Below are positions 2,489 through 8,352 of a stretch of 22,277 nt of DNA, piece by piece; position 1 is the first letter of the stretch; every line of letters begins with the position of its first letter. The DNA comes from Syncephalis plumigaleata. Taxonomy: Eukaryota; Zoopagomycota; Zoopagomycetes; Zoopagales; Piptocephalidaceae. The position numbers were made by a program, and so were the translations under genes. The stretch is from NCBI GenBank assembly GCA_025201365.1, contig JAIXMF010000227.1, positions 1 to 22,277 of the forward strand, in the 5' to 3' direction. Under the pieces are notes generated by a model that did no database searches, was not told the DNA's origin, and saw only the letters and a list, made by a program, of their open reading frames with translations.

Positions 2489-2559
2489 TGCGTAGTCGGG
2501 GAATCGAACCCCGGTCTACCGCGTGGCAGGCGGTAATTATACCACTAAACCAACTACGC
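2489..2559 (-). tRNA. tRNA-Gly (anticodon GCC)
   Basis: On the minus strand this is a 71-nt intronless tRNA. The 7-bp acceptor is GCGTAGT with ACTACGC and the discriminator is A. The D arm contains TGGTTTAGTGGTA (A box). The anticodon stem ACCGC/GCGGT closes the loop CTGCCAC with anticodon GCC (plus strand 2525-2527), and the T arm is CCGGG-GTTCGATTC-CCCG (B box). All stems pair. It lies 8 bp downstream of the 5S rRNA gene, in the same orientation. Confidence 0.97.
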
Positions 2560-2567
2560 ATGCTGAA

Positions 2568-2685
2568 AACTACATTACCCGAGATTCCCGCGTGGTCTCC
2601 CACCGCAGTACTAAGGGGGCGCGGCCTGGCTTAACTTCGGAGATCGGACGGGATCCGGTGCTTTTCAGGCGCTATGAACGTAGTT
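2568..2685 (-). rRNA. 5S ribosomal RNA
   Basis: The minus strand shows conserved 5S blocks in order: GAAAAGCACCGGATCCCGTC, CGATCTCCGAAGTTAAGC, TTAGTACTGCGGTGGGAGAC and CACGCGGGAATCTCGGG. The ends pair as helix I: 5' AACTACGTT against 3' AATGTAGTT, nine pairs with one G-U. This sets the gene at 118 nt, the normal size, give or take 1-2 nt at each end. A T4 run overlaps the 3' end (minus strand 2569-2566). The LTR retrotransposon begins 4 bp beyond the 5' end, so the gene body is intact but its native upstream flank has been displaced to 8349 onward. Confidence 0.95.
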
Positions 2686-2689
2686 GAAA
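2686..2689. repeat. Target-site duplication, left copy (GAAA)
   Basis: GAAA lies between the 5S gene 5' end and the TG of the left LTR, and is repeated directly after the right LTR. Four or five bp is the usual duplication size for Ty3/Gypsy integrases. Confidence 0.85.
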
Positions 2690-3189
2690 TGTAATCCGCT
2701 CCTGTGATATATGAACTTCACAGTAGGATTTCCTCACTTTAACGAATCTCCACCTAGATTTGATCACGTGATGATACACTTGCTCATTATTACGTCAGGA
2801 TCTATAACGATCACCCACTCGCCTCTTATTCCCTTACACAAACAATCAACAACCACCCGACGATTCAACATAAAGTAGCATTCGCCATGCTACGCTTCCC
2901 GCTCATCAACAAGTACTACGCGAACTAGTACATCTTCGACTAACTCGGCAAAGATGCGCTGTAGCAAACTCACATCTACTGCTGGTACCTCTTTACATTC
3001 ATAGCTGTTCTAGCTATATAAGCGTACTTACATTTATACGAAATAAAGACATTATCTTATCACACACTTACTCATCGAACAATACCCTCTACTCTACAAT
3101 TCTCTCAACTTATCATAGTGTCTTATCTTAACACGAGCTCTCGAATCTATCGTAACATTATTTCAGGCAGAACAAATTGCCGCGTTACA
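2690..3189 (+). repeat. Left LTR
   Basis: 500 bp, bounded by TGTAATCC and GCGTTACA (a 5-bp terminal inverted repeat). It contains a CACGTG E-box inside the 10-bp palindrome ATCACGTGAT (2763-2772), a perfect 7-bp-stem hairpin with a 5-nt loop (2875-2893), a 6-bp-stem hairpin (3001-3017) overlapping the TATA box, and AATAAA at 3042-3047. The sequence matches 7849-8348 base for base as far as I could compare. Confidence 0.97.
3015..3022 (+). promoter_or_regulatory. LTR TATA box
   Basis: TATATAAG lies in the last third of the LTR, about 175 bp from its end. It would start the genomic RNA near 3045. The equivalent copy in the right LTR is 8174-8181. The poly(A) signal AATAAA (3042-3047; right copy 8201-8206) lies close to the inferred start. 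Confidence 0.6.
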
Positions 3190-3193
3190 ATTT

Positions 3194-3208
3194 TGGTGCT
3201 CACTACAG
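3194..3208 (+). other. Primer-binding site (minus-strand DNA primer)
   Basis: TGGTGCTCACTACAG begins 4 nt after the left LTR, where the primer-binding site belongs, and its TGG pairs with the CCA tail of a tRNA. The implied tRNA 3' end is CTGTAGTGAGCACCA. The GAGCACCA end resembles elongator tRNA-Met of yeast, but the rest differs, so the primer tRNA is not identified. Confidence 0.6.
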
Positions 3209-3278
3209 GGAGTTCTTCTAGCTAAGACTAAGACATTTATTTTTCATATTTAGTTACATTTCTACATCAAGTATCGCA

Positions 3279-6200
3279 ATGGACGGCAAGATCGGATGTA
3301 TGGAAGCCCCTACCTTCGGAAGACGCAAGAGTGAAGACCCCGAGAAATGGCTGAGCCGATTCAAGAAGATCAAACGTGCAAACAATTGGCTCGACGACCA
3401 AGCAATCGCAATGGCAGGAGTCAGCTTAGAAGGGACGGCCGAGGCATGGTATGAATCCATCGAAGAAGTGACTACGACCTGGCAAGAATTCGAGAATGCC
3501 TTCCGTAGTAAATATGTTACCGTTGGCTATAAACATCATGCAACTAGGCAGCTCTTCTCGTATCGTCAAGGAAAAGAAGAATCCATCGACGAGCTACTCA
3601 CCACATTGGATAGCCTGATCAAGCGTGCGGAAATTACAAGCGACGAGGTCAAGTTGGAATTACTAGCTCAAGCCATTCGACCGGAGTACAAGCGTGAATT
3701 TCGAAAGGAAGGTCCAAATACATACCGACGAGCCAAGGAGTTATTACTGCGAGAAGAAAGTCTTGATTTAGAAGCGCAGGATATCTTACCAAGTATCAAG
3801 GCATCCTACGACCAACCAGCGTTAATTGGTCGGACCAAGAGCGAAGAAAGCAAGAGTCAGTCTCTCGAAACCAGCATGGAACGTCTAATGGAGCGATTTC
3901 AAGAAATGTCGCTCAACATGATACAAGCCATGGTACAAGAAAAGAACAAGCCCACGGAACGAAACAATGAGCGTTCATTCAGCGAAAGACGATGTTACAA
4001 TTGTCAAGGCAAAGGACATATGGCCCGAGAATGTCCCCAGAGACAAGGAGAAAATCTGAATCTATTAGATAACGATGCTAATGAAGATGATTTGTTCCCC
4101 TTAGGAAAGAGGAAAGAACGAGATATAGCTATTCCCGCTACAAGGAAGAACGCTAGAAAAGCCGTTGCTACCGATATGGAAATGGATATCCAAGAACAGA
4201 CGGTACCAACAACACACGTTGCGCAACCAACGGTACAAGCGAAGGATGTACCACGAAGGAAAGCCCCCGCAGCGAAAGAAGGAAATGTGGCTGCAAGAGT
4301 TCCCCGGCAACCACGAATGCCTCCTAATCTAAATTTGGAGACAGACAGAAATGCGTACAAGATTGAGGATCAACTACGTTCGACGCCAGCAAATATCTCG
4401 ATTGCACAACTGATTTACCAATCACCGGCAATCAGACAACAGTTAGCACGAGCTTTACGACGTGAGATGGATGCCAACAATCTTGATGATGAAATTGGTC
4501 ACAATTACACTTCAGCTCGACGACGTGTAATCATCAACGGTATAGAAGTAATGGCAATTATCGATACTGGAGCTGCCAGCTCGGTGATCAGCCCTGCGTT
4601 GGTCTCACACTTAGGTATACGACCTAGACACCGCGTTGATCGAGTATTGGTCACCGCAGATGGACAACGACATACTCCCCGGCATATGGTGAAAGACTTA
4701 CCCATAAGTATTGGACCCCTCACTTTACCCGCGGATATCATTGTATTCGAAAGAACAGGTCATCTACTGATTCTAGGTATCGACTGGATGAAGAGAAATT
4801 CCATTACCCCAGATATCATTCAAAACAAGTTAATTTATCGAAAGGATGGTATAACAATGGAAATTCCCATGAATACGCAGCAGTACGACGATATCGACCC
4901 CCTATTAGAGGACGCTCCCGTATTTGCCGCTCCAGACACGCCTCCAACGGATACCGCTAGCATTGAAACCTTATTCGAACATTTCAGTGTACAAAATGAA
5001 GGAGTAACTGCCGTGAACAGTCAGAGCGATTCAGGAAACGATGCAGATCTCGATATCATGGACCCGGACGATCTGTTTGGACTCGCAGTCACTACACCAA
5101 CCACTGCTTATCAACCGTTACCGGAAGACGACAGAGCCCAGTTACAAGCGGTAGTTGACGACTTTAAGGATGTTTTCGCAGAGGAAATCGAGGAATTAGG
5201 ACGTACAACCGCAGCAACGCACTCGATTGATACAGGAGATCATTCGCCGGTAAGAATTCGACCTTACCGTGTACCACAAGCAATGCTACGTCAAATCAAA
5301 GAAGAAATCGAGAAGATGAAGCAAAGTGGCGTAATCGAAGAAGCGCAATCACCCTGGTGTGCTCCACTTGTGCCCATTCAAAAGAAGAACGGTGGACTAC
5401 GTCTATGTGTCGACTATCGAAAGTTAAATGCAATTACTAGAAAGGATAAGTATCCCTTACCTTTAATTGACGAAATTATGGACGCCTTAGGTGGATCATC
5501 AGTTTACTCAACACTCGATGCGCGTTCTGGATATTGGCAAGTCCCTTTGGCTACGGAAGACGATCGCGACAAAACGGCTTTTGCAATCCCTGGTGGAGGC
5601 TTTTACCGCTTTTTAGTTATGCCTTTCGGTCTAGCAAACGCCCCTGGAACGTATCAACGCATGATGGAACGTGTGTTCGCTGATATGTTATGGAAAAACG
5701 TCATAGTATTCATTGACGACATTATTATTTACTCGAAGAATGTGGACGAACATTTGGACCATCTAAAAATAGCCCTCGATAGATGCCGAAAAGTTCAACT
5801 TCAACTATCTCCCACTAAATGCTTCATTGGATATCAAGGACTGGAATATTTAGGTTTTCGAATTTCAGCTCATGGTTTAGCACCCACCCCGAACAAAATC
5901 GATGCGATTATACATGCTAAACCACCTACTAACGTTACGACAGTTAGATCATTTATGGGCCTGGCCAGTTATTATAGACGCTTTGTGGAAGGCTTTGCAA
6001 CTATATCACGCCCATTAAATCGATTAATGCGGAAGAATACGCCCTGGTCGTGGGATGAAGATCAAATAGAAGCGTTTCAAACGTTGCAATCCAAACTCGC
6101 TAACGCTCCTATTCTACGATTTGTAGATTGGAACTTACCTTTTGTTTTAACTACAGATGGATCGGGACGAGGTCTTGGAGCAATCCTACAACAACGGTTG

Positions 6201-7820
6201 CCCGATCAGAAGGAAGTTGTTATTTCTTATGCTAGCCGTAGTCTCAGTCAAGCCGAAAGCAATTATAGTCCCACCCACCTGGAAGGACTCGCCGTCATAT
6301 GGGCTGTAAAGCATTACCGACATTACCTGTATGGACGACGATTTACGCTTAAAACGGATCACTCTGCATTATTATCGCTATTTAAGACGTCAGAACCACT
6401 CACCGGTCGACTAGCTAGATGGCAATTAATGTTAATGGAATACGACTACGACATCGAACATATCAAAGGCAAGATAAACCCGGCCGATTACTTATCTCGA
6501 CATCCAGCTCCTATGGAACAGCATACCGACCTATTTGCAATGTCATTCACCTTCTATAACGCAACTAGAGATTATGTGAACAAAATGGTTTATCCTACCA
6601 ACGCCACGGAAATTGAAAGAAAGCGATTACGAAGAATCGCAGGAAAGTATAAGGTTATCGATGATAAATTGTATCAAGTTATCAATAATCAGGAAAAGGA
6701 AGTATTACATGAGCATAACGCTCACGAGGAAATAGCAAGGATACATAATGAAGGACACAATGGTGTCGAAAATACATGGAGACGTGTGAAGATGCGTTTC
6801 GCCGGCATCGGTTTATACAAAGTCGTAAAAGAAGTAGTAAAAGGATGCGACATATGCCAGCGAAATACTACGACGGCCATTAGACAGGAACCTATGCATT
6901 CTATCAGTTCCAGTTATCCATTCCAATTACTCGGTGTTGACGCCATGGGACCCATCAACCCCATCAGTACGTCCGGAAATCGATATATTTTGACAGCTAT
7001 CGATTACTTCACTAAATGGCCTATTGCTCGAGCTACCAAGGATATCACCACTGAGACGGTCATTCGTTTCTTAATAGAAGATGTTGTGGCATTATATGGA
7101 GTTCCTCAGCAGTTAATTACGGATCGAGGAGCCGACTTCACGAGCGATTTAGCCGACGAATTCTTTAAGTATTTACGAATTCATCATACTCCTACTACTG
7201 CTTATAGACCACAAGCGAACGGTCAAGTAGAACGGTTAAATCGAACATTGAAAGAGCAGCTAACTAAACTGACTAACGGCAATTTACAATGGGATGTAGA
7301 TTTATGGAAAGCTTTATTAGTTATTCGCACCATGACCAGTGCTACTACGAAGTTTACCCCTAGTCGTTTGTTATATGGTTATGAGCTCAAAACGCCAGCC
7401 GTGTGGACGTTGAATACGAATAGTTTCATTGATTCCGAAGAAGAATACGATCAGCGTTTACAAAGTATTCAGTACGAATTACCGAAGTTACGAGAAGTGG
7501 CTCAAGAGAATACGCGAATTGCACAGATACGTCAGAAGATTCGCTACGATCGAACGGTTCAACCGCGTTCTTTCCAACCAAATACGGAGGTTTTATTACG
7601 GGTAATGGTATCATCAAGCGGAAAATTCACTAACTTGTATGATGGACCGTACAAAGTCATTCGTTTATTACACCCCGGTACTTACCTTATATCGGATGGT
7701 AAGAGTTTCGATATCGTTCACGTCGACAGACTTAAACCATACCATGAATATCAACAAATGATACCTGTCGTTCGACCAAGCCAACTACGATCCACTCTTC
7801 GCCGCTTCCGACAACCTTGA
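3279..7820 (+). CDS. Gag-Pol polyprotein, Ty3/Gypsy retrotransposon
   Basis: 1513 residues in one frame, with no gag-pol shift or stop. Gag (about 1-235) has a retrotransposon-gag core around WLSRFKKIKRANNW and EGTAEAWY. The zinc knuckle is C-x2-C-x4-H-x4-C at 239-252. The aspartic protease has IIDTGAASS with Asp429. Reverse transcriptase spans about 655-830 (VDYRKLNAIT, FIDD at 811-814). RNase H has Asp960, Glu1002, Asp1027 and Asp1070. The integrase has an HHCC finger (His1156, His1160, Cys1190, Cys1193) and a D,D35E core (Asp1221, Asp1282, Glu1318), then a GPY module at 1456-1458 (YDGPYKVIR). The chain ends about 55 residues later in a basic tail, with no chromodomain. All catalytic residues are present. 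A single gag-pol frame implies that Gag excess, if needed, arises by protein turnover or assembly and not by frameshifting; this is inference. Confidence 0.97.
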   Translation: MDGKIGCMEAPTFGRRKSEDPEKWLSRFKKIKRANNWLDDQAIAMAGVSLEGTAEAWYESIEEVTTTWQEFENAFRSKYVTVGYKHHATRQLFSYRQGKEESIDELLTTLDSLIKRAEITSDEVKLELLAQAIRPEYKREFRKEGPNTYRRAKELLLREESLDLEAQDILPSIKASYDQPALIGRTKSEESKSQSLETSMERLMERFQEMSLNMIQAMVQEKNKPTERNNERSFSERRCYNCQGKGHMARECPQRQGENLNLLDNDANEDDLFPLGKRKERDIAIPATRKNARKAVATDMEMDIQEQTVPTTHVAQPTVQAKDVPRRKAPAAKEGNVAARVPRQPRMPPNLNLETDRNAYKIEDQLRSTPANISIAQLIYQSPAIRQQLARALRREMDANNLDDEIGHNYTSARRRVIINGIEVMAIIDTGAASSVISPALVSHLGIRPRHRVDRVLVTADGQRHTPRHMVKDLPISIGPLTLPADIIVFERTGHLLILGIDWMKRNSITPDIIQNKLIYRKDGITMEIPMNTQQYDDIDPLLEDAPVFAAPDTPPTDTASIETLFEHFSVQNEGVTAVNSQSDSGNDADLDIMDPDDLFGLAVTTPTTAYQPLPEDDRAQLQAVVDDFKDVFAEEIEELGRTTAATHSIDTGDHSPVRIRPYRVPQAMLRQIKEEIEKMKQSGVIEEAQSPWCAPLVPIQKKNGGLRLCVDYRKLNAITRKDKYPLPLIDEIMDALGGSSVYSTLDARSGYWQVPLATEDDRDKTAFAIPGGGFYRFLVMPFGLANAPGTYQRMMERVFADMLWKNVIVFIDDIIIYSKNVDEHLDHLKIALDRCRKVQLQLSPTKCFIGYQGLEYLGFRISAHGLAPTPNKIDAIIHAKPPTNVTTVRSFMGLASYYRRFVEGFATISRPLNRLMRKNTPWSWDEDQIEAFQTLQSKLANAPILRFVDWNLPFVLTTDGSGRGLGAILQQRLPDQKEVVISYASRSLSQAESNYSPTHLEGLAVIWAVKHYRHYLYGRRFTLKTDHSALLSLFKTSEPLTGRLARWQLMLMEYDYDIEHIKGKINPADYLSRHPAPMEQHTDLFAMSFTFYNATRDYVNKMVYPTNATEIERKRLRRIAGKYKVIDDKLYQVINNQEKEVLHEHNAHEEIARIHNEGHNGVENTWRRVKMRFAGIGLYKVVKEVVKGCDICQRNTTTAIRQEPMHSISSSYPFQLLGVDAMGPINPISTSGNRYILTAIDYFTKWPIARATKDITTETVIRFLIEDVVALYGVPQQLITDRGADFTSDLADEFFKYLRIHHTPTTAYRPQANGQVERLNRTLKEQLTKLTNGNLQWDVDLWKALLVIRTMTSATTKFTPSRLLYGYELKTPAVWTLNTNSFIDSEEEYDQRLQSIQYELPKLREVAQENTRIAQIRQKIRYDRTVQPRSFQPNTEVLLRVMVSSSGKFTNLYDGPYKVIRLLHPGTYLISDGKSFDIVHVDRLKPYHEYQQMIPVVRPSQLRSTLRRFRQP

Positions 7821-7848: not shown

Positions 7849-8348
7849 TGTAATCCGCTCCTGTGATATATGAACTTCACAGTAGGATTTCCTCACTTTA
7901 ACGAATCTCCACCTAGATTTGATCACGTGATGATACACTTGCTCATTATTACGTCAGGATCTATAACGATCACCCACTCGCCTCTTATTCCCTTACACAA
8001 ACAATCAACAACCACCCGACGATTCAACATAAAGTAGCATTCGCCATGCTACGCTTCCCGCTCATCAACAAGTACTACGCGAACTAGTACATCTTCGACT
8101 AACTCGGCAAAGATGCGCTGTAGCAAACTCACATCTACTGCTGGTACCTCTTTACATTCATAGCTGTTCTAGCTATATAAGCGTACTTACATTTATACGA
8201 AATAAAGACATTATCTTATCACACACTTACTCATCGAACAATACCCTCTACTCTACAATTCTCTCAACTTATCATAGTGTCTTATCTTAACACGAGCTCT
8301 CGAATCTATCGTAACATTATTTCAGGCAGAACAAATTGCCGCGTTACA
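7849..8348 (+). repeat. Right LTR
   Basis: 500 bp, apparently identical to 2690-3189. The 28 bp between the gag-pol stop and this LTR (7821-7848) lack a convincing polypurine tract: directly before the LTR the sequence is TTTGTGTGGGCA. Confidence 0.97.
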
Positions 8349-8352
8349 GAAA
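8349..8352. repeat. Target-site duplication, right copy (GAAA)
   Basis: It matches 2686-2689. Joining it back to the 5S gene gives the pre-insertion order: 5S 5' end, GAAA, ATTTGGCA. Confidence 0.85.

Follow-up and report, generated by a model that had tools for sequence, protein, structure and literature searches.

Targeting of RNA polymerase III (Pol III) start sites by Ty3/Gypsy retrotransposons has been described in ascomycete yeasts and in social amoebae. Ty3 of Saccharomyces cerevisiae is described as inserting 1–4 bp upstream of Pol III starts and in both orientations (PMC5911963), and in its published structure a vestigial chromodomain, integrase residues 446–511, contacts Brf1 and DNA (PMC8632968). 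Tj1 of Schizosaccharomyces japonicus is reported to combine Pol III targeting with a fixed orientation: of 17 inserts arising de novo, 16 lay at Pol III genes and all of these shared one orientation, and the authors, who kept selection open as an explanation, stated that no other wild type long terminal repeat (LTR) element with a fixed orientation was known to them (PMC4600332). DGLT-A of Dictyostelium is described as a Gypsy element with a single open reading frame (ORF) and no chromodomain, located just upstream of tRNA genes (PMC5006619), at 13–33 bp and in either orientation in its amoebozoan host (PMC5911963). The Gypsy elements Tyl3 and Tyl6 of the ascomycete Yarrowia lipolytica, present in few copies at tRNA starts, are described without a chromodomain, and one Tyl3-like LTR is reported at the 5' end of a 5S gene of that species (PMC5014426). 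Here we describe a Ty3/Gypsy element inserted beside a 5S rRNA gene in a 22,277-bp stretch of DNA (the window), which is contig C143 (JAIXMF010000227.1) of the 32.6-Mb Syncephalis plumigaleata genome. Syncephalis is a zoopagomycete that parasitizes other moulds, and the assembly, of 383 contigs, includes haplotigs of approximately 98–99% identity. No Pol III start-targeting Gypsy element of Zoopagomycota was found in the literature searched, and a search for Syncephalis elements found no paper naming the species. The element represents a recently active family (family 1) whose integrase is very probably directed to the starts of Pol III units, 5S and tRNA alike, most likely by docking on TFIIIB (or a complex with TFIIIC) in a fixed orientation.

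A Ty3/Gypsy element at the start of a 5S rRNA gene

The window carries one of the 22 5S genes found in the genome, with the element inserted immediately upstream of it. The features of this locus, with duplications read from the sequence, are as follows.

2567..2685, minus strand: 5S rRNA gene, the target (Rfam RF00001, 100.5 bits, model positions 1–120), mature 5' end at 2685
2686..2689, no strand: left copy of the GAAA target-site duplication, occupying −1 to −4 relative to the 5S gene and equal to 8349–8352
2690..3189, plus strand: 5' LTR, 500 bp, identical to 7849–8348
3194..3211, plus strand: 18-nt primer-binding site, the complement of the tRNA-Ile(AAT) 3' end with CCA added
3279..7820, plus strand: single gag-pol ORF, 1513 aa
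7849..8348, plus strand: 3' LTR, 500 bp, identical to the 5' LTR
8349..8352, no strand: target-site duplication GAAA, right copy

The initial annotation had placed the 5' end of the 5S gene at 2685, a duplicated GAAA target at 2686–2689 and the start of the LTR at 2690. These positions proved exact to the base, with 2685 resting on the 5S family model, and the second GAAA was recovered beyond the 3' LTR. Pfam matches in the ORF run in the order gag, zinc knuckle, protease, reverse transcriptase, RNase H and integrase, and this order, the LTRs with TG...CA ends (0 mismatches between the two 500-bp copies), the target duplication and the primer-binding site place the element in Ty3/Gypsy (Metaviridae). 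Its nearest named gag-pol relatives are those of Smittium culicis (46%), Zancudomyces culisetae (47%) and Calcarisporiella thermophila (42%), and no integrase relatives were found in the viral contigs searched. Self-priming was considered and rejected, as no reverse complement of the first 9–12 nt of the internal region was present within 2600–3300 and the 18-nt match to tRNA-Ile was found instead.

Family 1 insertions across the genome

Copies of the LTR were sought across the genome in four ways, with the best 40 of 49, 53, 47 and 46 candidates scored, so that a few copies may be missing, and the flanks were read for every group of LTR matches. The 5' junctions of 23 LTRs adjoined a Pol III gene, and 22 of these are independent because C230 is a haplotig of C1:115k and the window locus. 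Allelic flanks bearing the same insertion were seen among these 23 loci only at C143, C1:115k and C230; C195 and C223 are alleles that carry different insertions. When the distance from each insertion to the nearest 5S or tRNA start was plotted, as the initial annotation had proposed, a Pol III gene was present with its mature 5' end 3–25 bp downstream in 22 of the 24 independent insertions whose 5' junction could be read. Set aside from this count were C230, C79:495k (5' end missing, degenerate), C88 (palindromic rearrangement) and the second LTR at the C340 contig end. The targets comprised four 5S genes, 17 tRNA genes and one selenocysteine tRNA (tRNA-Sec) gene, listed here with the C230 haplotig included.

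5S targets: C143, C1:115k, C230, C1:826k, C112:514k
tRNA targets: Leu(AAG), Pro(AGG), Ser(AGA), Sec, Tyr, Ala(AGC) twice, Gly(TCC), Ala(TGC), Arg, Trp, Lys, Thr, Ser(GCT), Pro(CGG), Cys, Leu(CAA), Ser(CGA)

Three copies located after the pattern had been stated all fitted it (3/3). Start-site targeting had been suggested from the window for 5S genes; targeting of Pol III starts is supported but its scope is wider, since tRNA genes, tRNA-Sec included, make up 18 of the 22 targets and 5S genes just four. The coincidence had also been judged hard to ascribe to chance from the single locus, and under a null model allowing a generous 200 Pol III genes, each with a 31-bp upstream window, the binomial probability of at least 22 of 24 insertions is 3.8e-80.

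A second family, Gypsy family 2, was examined in the same genome (12 copies with matching pol; 36 LTR matches grouped into 18 insertions, leaving out the three short diverged matches C223:332808, C351:822990 and C131). No tRNA or 5S gene was detected by ARAGORN and Rfam within approximately 200 bp beyond either end in any of the 18 insertions, Rfam having been run on every family 2 flank because ARAGORN missed two real tRNA genes. Random insertion as such is ruled out by the distance distribution together with this contrast. A variant in which elements insert at random and are lost, through harm to the host, unless they lie upstream of a Pol III gene might draw on the genes of the window, which have short introns and are closely packed and may thus leave few harmless sites. 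It is nevertheless highly improbable: the positions of family 2 indicate that the host tolerates other sites, the copies of family 1 are nearly identical (0–8 differences over 1.45 kb of the 5' end, excluding C57, which has an internal deletion in this segment) and so have left little time for selection, and survival would not alone yield a window of a few bp. Targeting of Pol III starts by family 1 is well supported, as firmly as a single genome allows.

Beside a tRNA-Tyr gene, C57:462138–473044 carries four LTRs of identical sequence at a spacing of exactly 3469 bp, and three inserts with internal deletions lie between them, representing either a tandem array or an assembly artefact.

Insertion geometry and target-site duplications

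The LTR end lay 3–4 bp from 5S genes, 5 bp from the tRNA-Sec gene and 7–13 bp from 14 of the 17 ordinary tRNA genes, the outliers being Ser(CGA) at 23 bp, Gly(TCC) at 24 bp and Ala(TGC) at 25 bp. The 5S and tRNA-Sec genes are thought to start at the mature end, with no 5' leader. Genes without a leader are hit closest and leader-bearing genes farther away, as would be expected if the transcription start rather than the gene body serves as the mark.

Duplications of 4 bp were equal on both sides in 19 of 23 junctions and comprised 12 different sequences, indicating no fixed target sequence; such a sequence had been considered and was disfavoured on this ground. Recognition by the integrase or intasome of a DNA sequence shared by the targets, rather than of a bound factor, would find a basis in the A+T-richness of many target 4-mers and in the common blocks at −31 to −27 and −19 to −13 in the upstream regions of 12 unoccupied 5S genes, some of them interrelated. 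With 12 different 4-mers in the 19 matching duplications, and with no start-proximal sequence common to the 5S, tRNA-Sec and 17 tRNA genes, for which Pol III is the common factor, this explanation is very unlikely.

Three unfilled alleles were present in the assembly, each with the target in a single copy. C41 has TACA once where C112:514k, a 5S site, has TACA on both sides of the element, and at two tRNA sites C223 lacks the insertion of C195 and C195 that of C223, the target being single-copy in each. These alleles were taken from other loci since at the window's own site the allelic contigs C230 and C1:115k both bear LTRs. The window 5S locus is present as two haplotypes with elements at the same position and duplications of GAAA versus GTAA. 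Over the first 1.45 kb the window copy differs from the C1:115k copy in six columns and is identical to the C38 copy. Comparison of these sequences suggests, as the simplest reading, two independent hits on one position.

In the most likely mechanism the intasome would dock on TFIIIB, or on its complex with TFIIIC, just upstream of the start, and the element ends would be joined with a stagger of 4 bp spanning about −4 to +1. Docking in one orientation would leave the element always transcribed away from its target.

A second retroelement at Pol III genes

A tRNA-Pro-derived short interspersed element (SINE) of approximately 320 bp, with a poly-A tail and, within several LTRs, a 14–17-bp duplication, was also present beside Pol III genes. 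In a genome-wide search the best 40 of 45 candidates were scored, with haplotig copies included in the counts and genes looked for only on the side of the head, in most cases up to 260 bp away. SINE heads lay 75–106 bp upstream of a Pol III gene in 22 of 37 cases, all of them divergent and one after subtraction of an intervening LTR. Ten of the remaining heads had no gene on the head side and four had a gene at 175, 183, 518 and 654 bp; the distance at C112:660k is uncorrected for an adjoining element. At C88, which has a reversed LTR, the SINE occupies a different LTR position yet is again 88 bp from the gene. Examples of SINE heads are as follows.

L059:2210–2533, SINE head
L044:2225–2542, SINE head
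L004:1695–1966, SINE head

The SINE is a second Pol III-targeting retroelement in this genome and provides an independent readout of Pol III complexes. It resembles TRE5 of Dictyostelium, described as a non-LTR element at a fixed distance upstream of tRNA genes and in opposite orientation to them; TRE5, however, is an autonomous L1-type element at approximately 44–54 bp (PMC5911963), and the distance of the tRNA-Pro-derived SINE is roughly twice that.

Orientation of insertion and the target gene

The 5' LTR end faced the Pol III gene in 23/23 junctions (22/22 independent; two-sided sign test 4.8e-7), so that the element is transcribed away from its target. At the 5S gene of the window the end in question is the following.

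2690..2715, minus strand: 5' LTR end on the 5S side; read from the gene, TATAT at −26 to −22, a putative site for TATA-binding protein

Insertion displaces the upstream blocks of the 5S gene and brings this TATAT to −26 to −22, an arrangement suggestive only of an LTR motif replacing the displaced promoter element. No TATAW was present within 60 bp of the other LTR end. In C373, C351, C329 and C322 a SINE lies within a family 1 LTR, at the distance typical of SINEs in this genome, and these SINE insertions are therefore later than the LTRs. Their presence is likewise suggestive only, of LTR-occupied genes that still assemble Pol III factors and remain competent targets.

These observations would be in keeping with integration in both orientations and persistence of divergent copies only, the TATA-like site at approximately −26 keeping the target gene active: the site is offered by one LTR end and not the other, and SINEs at their usual −90 within LTRs suggest that occupied genes recruit the Pol III machinery. 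The near-identity of the copies, though, leaves little time for such selection, and the single orientation of Tj1 is reported to arise de novo, even if its authors did not dismiss selection (PMC4600332). We regard persistence as a doubtful cause of the bias and favour docking of the intasome in one orientation, which probably fixes the orientation at integration.

Several observations weigh against targeted, oriented insertion at Pol III starts. Distances were measured to mature 5' ends, and the Pol III starts were inferred from these. The duplications mismatch at C230 and C322 and could not be read at C340 and C1:388k, and at the window locus the 3' ends, with only two base differences, do not tell the copies apart. 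Two insertions lie away from Pol III genes, C1:2405852, with an ATAT duplication, and C1:2510556, a solo LTR of 98.4% identity with ACTT on both sides. Rfam searches to E 0.1 for a cryptic Pol III gene at these two sites found none within approximately 1.5 kb; at C1:2405852 a B-box-like 11-mer lies 68 bp in on the expected strand, a weak match with a null frequency of 0.025 at one of two sites examined. Finally, the rearranged C88 has a 3' LTR 27 bp from a tRNA-Ala gene and could be a reversed insertion, making it the only possible exception to the fixed orientation.

The C88 structure (C88:2573–10301; L042, L068) comprises two LTRs in a head-to-head palindromic junction, together with a SINE and another repeat, adjoining the tRNA-Ala gene.

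The integrase and a candidate tether

The integrase and the residues that follow it were delimited as follows.

6726..7739, plus strand: integrase, residues 1150–1487, opening with the H2C2 zinc domain and closing with the p58 C-terminal motif, by Pfam, alignment to Ty3 and an AlphaFold2 model
7740..7817, plus strand: C-terminal integrase tail, 26 residues, shared with close relatives in alignment, a candidate tether

No chromodomain was detected by Pfam after the integrase in the 1513-aa ORF, where only 26 residues follow the p58_C match, and the element does not group with chromoviruses by this character. The lack of a chromodomain, already noted in the initial annotation, is consistent with the end of the Ty3 alignment and with the short tail of the model. 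Alignment to Ty3 (7q5b) stops at chain residue 1458, which by our own conversion of residue numbers is near the start of the Ty3 chromodomain. The AlphaFold2 model (mean pLDDT, the predicted local distance difference test score, 77.8; 11 sequences) comprises a linker helix at residues 331–368 of the modelled piece, a small barrel at 381–431 and a short tail. A Foldseek search with this model returned foamy-virus integrase first and Ty3 7q5b with an E value of 9.7e-19. The fold is like that of Ty3, and the long helix predicted here between the catalytic core and C-terminal domains is also described for Ty3 (PMC8632968).

The 26-residue tail has a pattern, M[IV] followed by [LI]R near the end, common to seven of ten aligned relatives. 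A short C-terminal segment is reported to act as the tether of Ty1 integrase (PMC10050235), and from the alignment it is plausible that the tail of the S. plumigaleata integrase tethers it to the Pol III machinery. The partner might then be Pol III itself, as with Ty1 integrase and AC40, instead of TFIIIB, the short tail common to close relatives and the Ty1 precedent (PMC10050235) both being in keeping with this. Insertions of Ty1 are described as spreading over approximately 1 kb upstream and those of Ty3 as lying at the start (PMC5911963), and with distances here of 3–25 bp direct contact with Pol III is unlikely; TFIIIB is probably the docking partner, and the tail may provide the contact. 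Targeting in this element would be separated from the chromodomain contact of the Ty3 structure, with a short peptide indicated as the candidate.

A fuller scenario, held tentatively, is that of a chromodomain-free zoopagomycete Gypsy lineage that targets through a C-terminal integrase peptide and in one orientation, its TATA-like box in the LTR at approximately −26 replacing a promoter element, with the SINE using the same genes from −90. If this is so, insertion would leave the target gene working and two unrelated retroelements would share one Pol III promoter.

Comparison with known Pol III-targeting elements

The element is Ty3-like in its aim, Tj1-like in its single but opposite orientation and DGLT-A-like in having no chromodomain. 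It shares with Ty3 the Gypsy domain order and insertion within a few bp of Pol III starts, as far as these are inferred from mature 5' ends. Whereas Ty3 inserts in both orientations (PMC5911963), the element here was divergent in 22/22 independent insertions, with C88 unresolved, and in place of the vestigial chromodomain and gag-pol frameshift of Ty3 it has no chromodomain, one ORF and a 4-bp duplication. Pol III targeting and a fixed orientation are common to it and Tj1, which is described as pointing the same way as its target gene and as self-priming, with a stop separating gag from pol and a target duplication of 5 bp (PMC4600332); the element here is its mirror image, with a 4-bp duplication, one ORF and a tRNA-Ile primer site. 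DGLT-A, by its description, resembles it in having a single ORF, no chromodomain and a position upstream of tRNA genes; the nearest named relatives of the element are fungal. Tyl3 and Tyl6 are alike as Gypsy elements at tRNA starts. A second fixed-orientation element, facing opposite to Tj1, would permit a comparison to find what sets orientation, and family 1 offers a natural example of precisely aimed, low-damage insertion.

Other features of the Pol III genes

All 22 5S genes are followed after 5–10 bp by a tRNA gene, for Gly, Ile, Asp, Glu or Lys, with one unnamed by ARAGORN. In the window this second gene of the cassette is as follows.

2489..2559, minus strand: tRNA-Gly(GCC), Rfam 65.7 bits, anticodon GCC by ARAGORN

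No T run longer than four was present at the 5S-tRNA junctions and T5–T6 follows the tRNA, so that these cassettes look like 5S-tRNA dicistrons. Units of tRNA and 5S genes reportedly occur in Yarrowia, in the order reverse to that seen here.

The tRNA-Sec gene at L017:2005–2090 (C65) scored 74.7 bits against an Rfam cut-off of 47 and has a solo LTR 5 bp upstream. Exons of SepSecS were matched on C35 and C110, and together these genes indicate that S. plumigaleata may use selenocysteine.

A repeat of approximately 534 bp, with 99% identity, lies approximately 35–125 bp downstream of Pol III genes in mixed orientation and is perhaps a third element, the association being biased because the loci were pre-selected for Pol III genes. 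It was located as follows.

L003:853–1386, repeat of approximately 534 bp
L026:2132–2665, the same repeat
L060:4255–4788, the same repeat
L107:1361–1601, the same repeat
L055:1826–2358, the same repeat

A tandem array with a 43-bp period was found upstream of Pol III genes at three loci (L004:1994–3119, L062:3855–4713 and L067:1–749). The window also holds a Pam17 gene.
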